A DNA stretch of 64,000 nt. Source: Parvularcula mediterranea (lineage in GTDB: Bacteria > Pseudomonadota > Alphaproteobacteria > Caulobacterales > Parvularculaceae). Below are positions 6,777-52,820 of this stretch, piece by piece (position 1 is the stretch's first letter; the number at the start of each line of letters is the position of its first letter). The position numbers and the translations under genes are program-made. Below the pieces are notes generated by a model. The model was not told the DNA's origin. It worked only from the letters and a program-made list of their open reading frames with translations, and made no database searches. Where the stretch lies: NCBI RefSeq assembly GCF_013085255.1, contig NZ_JABFCX010000003.1:372001-436000 (forward strand), in the 5' to 3' direction.

Positions 6777-6873
6777 GTGGAGGGTTGCGATCGAAGATCG
6801 AACCCGAAACAAGACGCCGACCGGCGTCCGGGCGGCCAGCCCTCCCCATCGGAGGGCCCACGGCCCGTGAGAT
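6777..6873 (-). repeat. tRNA-trailer three-hairpin element, copy A
   Basis: Read on the minus strand, the same strand as tRNA-Val(CAC): ATCTCAC; hairpin 1 GGGCC-GTG-GGCCC; linker TCCGATGGGG; hairpin 2 GGGC-TGGCC-GCCC; hairpin 3 GACGCC-GGTC-GGCGTC. Then comes a TTGTTTCGGGTTCGATC stretch that can fold on the following GATCGCAACCC. It is the second of two tandem copies downstream of the tRNA. The stems differ from copies B and C but remain paired. Confidence 0.75.
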
Positions 6874-6882
6874 CAGGAAACA

Positions 6883-6979
6883 GTGGAGGGATCGATCAAA
6901 GATCGAACCCGGAACAAAGCCGCGACCGCGGCCCGGACCCACTGGTCCGCCCCATCGGAGATGCCGCGCATCGTGAGAT
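6883..6979 (-). repeat. tRNA-trailer three-hairpin element, copy B
   Basis: It begins about 8 bases after the CCA of tRNA-Val(CAC) on the minus strand. Order: ATCTCAC; hairpin 1 GATGC-GCG-GCATC; linker TCCGATGGGG; hairpin 2 CGGACC-AGTG-GGTCCG; hairpin 3 GCCGC-GGTC-GCGGC; then GGGTTCGATC/GATCGATCCC as a fourth stem with one mismatch. Hairpins 1 and 2 have quite different sequences from copy A, yet pairing is perfect and both linkers are identical. Confidence 0.75.
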
Positions 6980-6987
6980 AGAAAAAA

Positions 6988-7062
<75 letters not shown>

Positions 7063-8816: not shown

Positions 8817-8903
8817 CAGTCCCACGTTGTCAACGCGGAATGTCGCAGATTGTTACGAATAGCTGTTGCAGCGATGCACTGCTTCTGACAGCTAGGCACC
8901 CAT

Positions 8904-8934
8904 AAAAAAAAAGGCCGCGACCGAAGTCGCGACC
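8904..8934 (-). terminator. Rho-independent terminator of the candidate small RNA
   Basis: Nine-pair stem GGTCGCGAC/GTCGCGGCC (one G-T pair) with a TTCG tetraloop (8913-8934), followed on the minus strand by a run of T (A8904-A8912 on the plus strand). On the plus strand no T run follows, so it acts only on minus-strand transcripts. Confidence 0.85.
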
Positions 8935-8985
8935 AGTCTAGGGAGGAAACGCCCGGAAGGGCATGTTGGCAGCGCCAACACCCCT
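8904..8985 (-). ncRNA. Candidate small RNA with exposed CCUCCC (anti-Shine-Dalgarno type)
   Basis: On the minus strand the order is: hairpin TGTTGGC-GCT-GCCAACA (8964-8980), hairpin GCCC-TTCC-GGGC (8951-8962), an unpaired GTTTCCTCCCTAGACT (about 8935-8950), then terminator hairpin GGTCGCGAC-TTCG-GTCGCGGCC with an 8-9 base T run. No reading frame on this strand leads into the terminator, so it has no obvious mRNA to serve. A short hairpin-rich RNA with an exposed CCUCCC matches the design of alphaproteobacterial sRNAs that mask ribosome-binding sites. The 5' end is a guess; no clear promoter was found. Confidence 0.55.
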
Positions 8986-52358: not shown

Positions 52359-52451
52359 GGAGACGTGGCCGAGTGGTCGAAGGCGCTCCCCTGCTAAGGG
52401 AGTAAGCGGTTTGTAGCCGTTTCGAGGGTTCGAATCCCTTCGTCTCCGCCA
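52359..52451 (+). tRNA. tRNA-Ser (anticodon GCT)
   Basis: Long-variable-arm tRNA: acceptor GGAGACG/CGTCTCC, anticodon stem CTCCC/GGGAG around CTGCTAA (anticodon GCT), a large variable arm (TAAGCGGTTTGTAGCCGTTT), T-arm GAGGGTTCGAATCCCTTC, discriminator G, CCA at 52449-52451. The trailer carries the three-hairpin element on the same strand from 52460. Confidence 0.97.
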
Positions 52452-52820
52452 GTTCTTTTATCTCACGGGCCGTAGGCCCTCCGATGGGGCGGGCTGGCCG
52501 CCCGGCGACCGGGTTGGTCGCTTGGGTGCCGCCCATTGGTTTGATCCGAAGCTGCTGAGATCAAAGCTGGGTCCGGCGCGAGGTTTCCTCGCCCCCAAGA
52601 TTCAATTTTTCTGCGCCTCCCTGCTCCCGAAAACTGCCTTCTTGAGACTACGTTGCCATCCGCTGTTCTGCTTGGGTGGAGGCGTTCTGTGCACGGTGCA
52701 TGTGATGCTCGTGAGCGGCGCAACACCGCTTAGGATAAGGGTTTCATTGCGTTTCCTGCTTGGAGACTGGCGCGGCTCCGCTATCATCGGGTGCAACGAT
52801 AAAGACCTGAGGAACGCCCC
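52452..52820. other. Gene-free stretch between tRNA-Ser and the pullulanase gene
   Basis: About 370 bases. Positions 52460-52570 are the three-hairpin trailer element. The rest has no credible coding region; the plus frame at 52522-52824 has no family features. A weak sigma70-like promoter, TTGGAG then a 16-base spacer and TATCAT, lies near 52759-52786 and could serve the pullulanase gene. No other structure seen. Confidence 0.5.
52460..52570 (+). repeat. tRNA-trailer three-hairpin element, copy C
   Basis: On the plus strand after the tRNA-Ser CCA: ATCTCAC; hairpin 1 GGGCC-GTA-GGCCC; linker TCCGATGGGG; hairpin 2 CGGGC-TGGCC-GCCCG; hairpin 3 GCGACC-GGGTT-GGTCGC; then TTTGATC and GATCAAA as a fourth stem with a longer loop. 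The linkers are identical to copies A and B, while hairpin 3 has a different, fully paired sequence. Confidence 0.75.

Follow-up and report, generated by a model that had tools for sequence, protein, structure and literature searches.

The tRNA-Val(CAC) gene of Parvularcula mediterranea is followed by two tandem copies of a three-hairpin element that probably belongs to a REP/MITE-like family of mobile hairpin DNA, devoid of a RAYT and targeting the 3′ ends of genes, rather than being an RNA of the tRNA trailer. The tandem would be a pair of small mobile DNA repeats, non-autonomous and inserting in sense immediately behind gene 3′ ends, i.e., in tRNA trailers first and also behind rnpB, terminator T-runs and stop codons. 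The mobilizing enzyme, a putative recombinase supplied in trans or lost, would recognize a folded single DNA strand, with T-rich 3′ flanks as its preferred target.

Anatomy and covariation of the element

A covariance model (R1) was built from 16 copies found in the own genome, and R2 is an improved version of it. In the window (the whole stretch of 64,000 nucleotides that was analyzed), the model matches bear out the sequence-only reading as to the two tandem three-hairpin copies, their place and the stems listed for them, and also as to a third copy. The features are the following.

6988–7062 (−): tRNA-Val(CAC), host gene of the tandem (ARAGORN and Rfam tRNA)
6980–6987 (−): T-rich stretch from the CCA to copy 1, TTTTTTCT (by sequence)
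6915–6979 (−): element copy 1 (R2, 77.5 bits, match 6985–6915)
6979–6977 with 6956–6954 (−): copy 1, helix P0, ATC/GAT, internal loop TCAC/TCC
6972–6960 (−): copy 1, hairpin H1, GATGC/GCATC
6949–6934 (−): copy 1, hairpin H2, CGGACC/GGTCCG
6933–6918 (−): copy 1, hairpin H3, GGCCGC/GCGGCT, loop GGTC
6880–6914 (−): spacer between the copies, GGGTTCGATC..GATCGATCCCTCCA, a T-loop/CCA-like palindromic remnant (by sequence)
6809–6879 (−): element copy 2 (R2, 72.6 bits)
6873–6871 with 6850–6848 (−): copy 2, helix P0, ATC/GAT
6866–6854 (−): copy 2, hairpin H1, GGGCC/GGCCC
6842–6830 (−): copy 2, hairpin H2, GGGC/GCCC
6828–6813 (−): copy 2, hairpin H3, GACGCC/GGCGTC, loop GGTC
6777–6808 (−): second T-loop/CCA-like palindromic tail, GGGTTCGATCTTCGATCGCAACCCTCCA (by sequence)
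52359–52451 (+): tRNA-Ser(GCT), host gene of the third copy
52454–52524 (+): third element copy, directly 3′ of tRNA-Ser(GCT) (R2, 76.5 bits)

The tandem folds more stably than all of 200 dinucleotide shuffles (z −3.8). It probably originated by repeated insertion or by duplication of a unit of ∼106 nt, which would include the spacer resembling a tRNA 3′ end. The window also contains a suhB/mmgR small RNA (RF00519, 60.4 bits) at 8898–8969 (−).

The element measures ∼70–85 nt, with a core of ∼70 nt that contains the three hairpins. Its consensus order is T-run, NNC, TCAC, H1 (5 bp), TCC, GNN, GGGG, H2, H3 (5–7 bp) and CTT(G/C), after which comes a short variable tail. A fourth helix of 3 bp (P0), in which the NNC ahead of TCAC pairs with the GNN after TCC, encloses H1 and was also predicted independently by RNAalifold. 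This helix is wholly Watson-Crick in 101 of 118 distinct copies and occurs as ATC/GAT, GCC/GGC, GTC/GAC, CGC/GCG, GTT/AAC, GCT/AGC, ACC/GGT, CTC/GAG, GGC/GCC and AGC/GCT. Near fixity is confined to the internal loop TCAC/TCC. The linkers ATCTCAC and TCCGATGGGG, previously taken as invariant, thus contain a helix (ATC/GAT) that covaries in other copies, and the H3 loop GGTC, described as fixed, is simply the commonest one, GCTT, AGTC and CGTC being present as well. A closing helix ATCTCA...TGAGAT appeared in a few copies and was dropped, since it was inconsistent over the set.

That the stems diverge while pairing is kept had been noticed from the letters alone, and the covariation is indeed far above chance. 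Among 92 copies, 93.2% of the cells were paired (69.3% in shuffled alignments) and double changes were found in 17 of 20 pairs. The values for 58 distinct copies from outside the genus were 92.8% and again 17 of 20, in an alignment that leans towards structure because it was fitted to R2, a model that part of this set had also served to build.

Several other features were observed in or near the copies. In the own genome (G000) the 3′ tail adjacent to H3 reads CGGCGGAACCG, and in the congener G003 CCGTTCCGCCG; the two are near reverse complements, as if this end had been inverted. A third module, GCGCTAYCGCTTCGCTAYTTGAGCGC, appears in tRNA trailers and is also embedded in element copies, in their linker or in H2, as though it had been inserted there (L053, L057, L059, L060 and L061 in G000; L195 and L198 in G003; L203–L205 in G006; L220 in G007). 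Many own-genome copies (e.g., L034, L036, L041) have palindromes of the type CCCTCTCCC..GGGAGAGGG located 50–100 nt further downstream.

Dispersal and insertion behind gene 3′ ends

The element is dispersed, with 28 significant copies in the own genome (3.2 Mb) and presence in 28 of 61 genomes drawn from its genus, family and order (both with R1). Sequence comparisons were made on the stretches surrounding copies and tRNAs. Counts in congeners range from 0 (G004) and 1 (G002 and G007) to 39 (G003). Exact-pattern matches were found in Parvularcula maris, P. lutaonensis and P. dongshanensis, and also in MAGs labeled Neomegalonema, Marinosulfonomonas, Devosia and Rhodobacterales. Over the class the presence is patchy, at least 24 of 385 alphaproteobacterial genomes with R2, a minimum figure since the number of candidates scored in each genome was small. 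No Rfam family matched at the gathering score, with chance-level matches only at E up to 10, in agreement with the earlier remark that no family with this layout was known. The literature searched, mostly outside subscription journals, contained no description of a tRNA-linked repeat family like this one in Alphaproteobacteria.

The position of the copies is strongly biased. Thirteen of the 28 own-genome copies lie at most 120 nt downstream of a tRNA, all of them in sense; ten start 4–8 nt past the end of the tRNA model, one at 41 nt, the tandem partner at 112 nt and a further one at 114 nt. By chance, some 0.01 copies would be expected within 60 nt downstream of tRNAs, so that the enrichment is real and strand-specific. 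Similarly, sense copies within 250 nt of a tRNA amounted to 18 of 38 in G003, 8 of 13 in G005 and 8 of 9 in G006, with a single nearby copy in the opposite orientation. A copy also follows rnpB in the own genome and, judging by sequence, in G003. The sequence-only reading had held that copies scattered at random, unrelated to tRNAs and without strand preference, would speak against it. This applies by half, as 15 of the 28 copies are indeed elsewhere, but their strand and position are not random. Eighteen copies have a gene upstream in sense, and for 11 of them heuristic gene calls place its stop codon 2–13 nt from the element, while the distances to neighbor genes on the opposite strand were spread out.

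The T-run is also found in copies that are not behind tRNAs. Starts rich in T/C are common in tRNA trailers that have no element, so the T-run could be part of the target or of the element itself. A target rule of the kind “stem-loop plus T-run” fits single cases (hflC, and tRNA-Leu/Thr in G003) and was abandoned as a general rule, the hairpins ahead of non-tRNA copies being no stronger than in control stretches. Neither does the element have the layout of an intrinsic terminator, in which a GC hairpin is followed by a T-run; here the T-run precedes and there is none after H3.

Mobility is indicated by orthologous sites that are filled in one genome and empty in another, and these show insertion (gene names by sequence recognition). 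At sdhA, the own genome has the element right after the stop codon, and it is absent in G003, G005, G006, G007 and G009; 3′ of the element, the own genome keeps a terminator that closely resembles the one in G005. The site behind an acyl-CoA synthetase gene holds the element in the own genome, whereas that of G003 and G005 is empty. At hflC it is filled in the own genome, directly after the terminator T-run, and empty in G003, G005 and G009, and at rpoH it is filled in the own genome, and twice in G003, and empty in G005, G006, G007 and G009. The reverse situation is that of tRNA-Val(GAC), empty in the own genome (15 nt to the conserved downstream sequence) and filled in two congeners; in G005 there are about 520 nt with two element copies before a downstream sequence that is 80% identical. 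One copy behind tRNA-Met and another after the acyl-CoA synthetase CDS are 100% identical. The nearest relative of a copy was in the same genome for 32 of 35 copies in G003, 9 of 9 in G006 and 11 of 24 in the own genome. No terminal inverted repeats or target duplications were seen by eye in the copies and the filled/empty pairs, which come from strains too distant to place the junctions.

At some tandems and single copies, what follows the element is a degenerate copy of the 3′ end of the host tRNA, from the T-loop to the CCA. Such copies were present at 9 of 44 element-bearing tRNAs and 3 of 63 controls (p 0.026), mainly Ser and Leu, and they may be duplication units that include the tRNA end or att-like repeats. 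As only this minority carries one, a universal attR-like copy was discarded. Other sequences at tRNA 3′ ends were also recorded. A second hairpin family starts at the tRNA CCA end (TTCGC... AAAAGGTCYGGGGGACCTTTT ... GCGAATG), pairs by its base with the tRNA CCATT and is often followed by the three-hairpin element (L122, L131 and L123 in G000; L038, upstream of the element; L170, L174, L175 and L200 in G003; L214 in G005). Perfect palindromes with the tRNA 3′ end as the 5′ arm (e.g., CTACCATTCCGGCCGGAGGCCGGAATGGTAG; L176, L187 and L196 in G003, L213 in G005) are often next to a T-run, as terminator-like hairpins overlapping the mature tRNA end. In G004 (L156), ∼94 nt behind tRNA-Trp(CCA), 25 nt of the tRNA 3′ end recur without a mismatch, which may represent the attR of an integrated element.

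Regarding candidate movers, no match to Y1_Tnp/RAYT (PF01797) was found in the own genome, G001, G005, G006, G008 or G009, with one weak partial match in G003; given its absence from the own genome, a RAYT was rejected as the mover. A group II intron or retron origin was likewise rejected, as no reverse transcriptase (PF00078) was detected in the own genome, G005 or G006. A Y2 search found nothing, and the control genomes gave no response either.

Transcribed RNA or mobile DNA

Selection on a transcribed structure in the resident copies should result in G·U far exceeding A·C. In the element stems of these copies the proportion of G·U to A·C was 28:27, and 22:25 in a second set, whereas the acceptor, anticodon and T stems of 110 tRNAs of the same loci gave 120:4 (Fisher 7e-13). 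Two edge pairs of ambiguous alignment, which lean to G·U, were excluded from this count; with both included, the proportions become about 50:27 and 33:26, still far from that of the tRNAs. The stems of the resident copies therefore decay strand-symmetrically, and the selection on RNA structure initially proposed for this tRNA trailer finds no G·U excess to sustain it. The comparison covers resident copies; the covariation itself could have arisen in active lineages, where recognition of a folded DNA strand, template correction or RNA could have built it.

Against mobile DNA we have counted the strictly sense placement behind transcripts, with which an RNA would also be in line, the negative outcome for a transposase, terminal inverted repeats and target duplications, the tRNA sites occupied in several species (Ser(GCT), Arg(TCT)), and the lean of the two edge pairs to G·U. 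A cis-acting RNA, in which the transcribed three-hairpin trailer directs 3′ processing of the upstream tRNA, RNase P RNA or mRNA, protects it or terminates it, nevertheless appears unlikely. It would be in line with the location right behind tRNAs, rnpB and stop codons, with the strong covariation of the stems and with the exact-pattern matches in distant genera, which are also found after CCA ends. In addition, the combination of a U-run and structure is similar to the entry site of RNase E. However, besides the missing G·U excess and the 15 own-genome copies that are not behind tRNAs, most tRNAs lack the element and those occupied differ between species, a turnover that, together with the filled and empty sites, speaks against the reading as an RNA trailer. 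At several G003 loci a complete terminator-like hairpin with its T-run separates the tRNA from the element, and the congener G004 has 38 tRNAs and not a single copy.

A domesticated repeat, spread by movement and with a subset of copies kept for a function as RNA or DNA such as the insulation of gene ends, we consider improbable. Some sites are occupied in several species, namely tRNA-Arg(TCT), in three of them with synteny, and tRNA-Ser(GCT), as are rnpB and rpoH in more than one. However, by our own estimate, occupied sets overlapping by chance would produce about as many shared tRNAs, and the similarity of copies from different species at one and the same tRNA (0.78) does not exceed that among the copies of a single genome (0.78).

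Known systems and significance

Mobile DNA aimed at gene 3′ ends remains the preferred reading, and it can be compared with several known systems. Integrative elements use tRNA 3′ ends as attB, the same target, and a minority of copies has a degenerate tRNA 3′ end beyond the element. However, the latter is about 0.1 kb long, has no integrase, is also found at stop codons and rnpB, and at most sites there is no T-arm copy. With MITEs and other small mobile repeats, as described in PMC10969869 and PMC2229807, it shares being a non-autonomous dispersed repeat with insertion polymorphism (filled and empty sites), but it displays no visible terminal inverted repeats or target duplications and has an internal multi-hairpin fold. 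The palindrome located about 10 bp behind tRNA genes in Methanopyrus kandleri, proposed as a processing signal (PMC5217627), is similarly placed behind many tRNAs, but it is single and short, belongs to one archaeon only and has no evidence of mobility there.

REPs are the closest in behavior. According to PMC3733652, they are extragenic, lie no more than 20 bp from ORF 3′ ends and are amplified in a species-specific manner; GTAG REPs are single stem-loops of 20–40 bp with GTAG at one end and a cognate RAYT, while CGTC REPs, whose families predominate in Alphaproteobacteria without a dedicated transposase, have a stem of 8–9 bp with AT in the first positions, a CGTC tag and a CCA tail. Like these (including RPE-4/RPE-6 and dRS3), our element is a short, extragenic, multi-copy palindromic sequence hugging ORF 3′ ends and amplified species-specifically, i.e., a REP in the broad sense. 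Unlike them, it has three hairpins of GC-rich stems (H1 and H3, 5–7 bp) plus a covarying helix in a ∼70-nt core, ends in T-run...CTT(G/C), has neither a GTAG or CGTC tag nor a CCA tail in its consensus, and is strongly linked in sense to tRNA trailers, in a host without RAYT. Owing to this mismatch in architecture and tags and to the absence of RAYT, we have not filed it under either superfamily, although it works like a REP. An ordinary REP system of the GTAG or CGTC superfamily is hence very improbable, all the more as PMC3733652, in the parts searched, reports no association with tRNA trailers.

We suggest, tentatively, that this is a new mobile multi-hairpin family extending over the Alphaproteobacteria, in which a putative non-RAYT recombinase might read the folded strand (TCAC/TCC loop and P0) and target gene 3′ ends in sense. 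Such a class-wide family would be an addition to the small mobile repeats of bacteria, and its preference for inserting in sense just 3′ of tRNAs and stop codons demands a mechanism and an enzyme. A strong covariation of stems behind tRNAs need not mean a functional RNA, and comparing G·U to A·C with the tRNAs of the same genomes separates the RNA and DNA readings. Finally, the element partly explains the strong variation of tRNA trailers between congeners.
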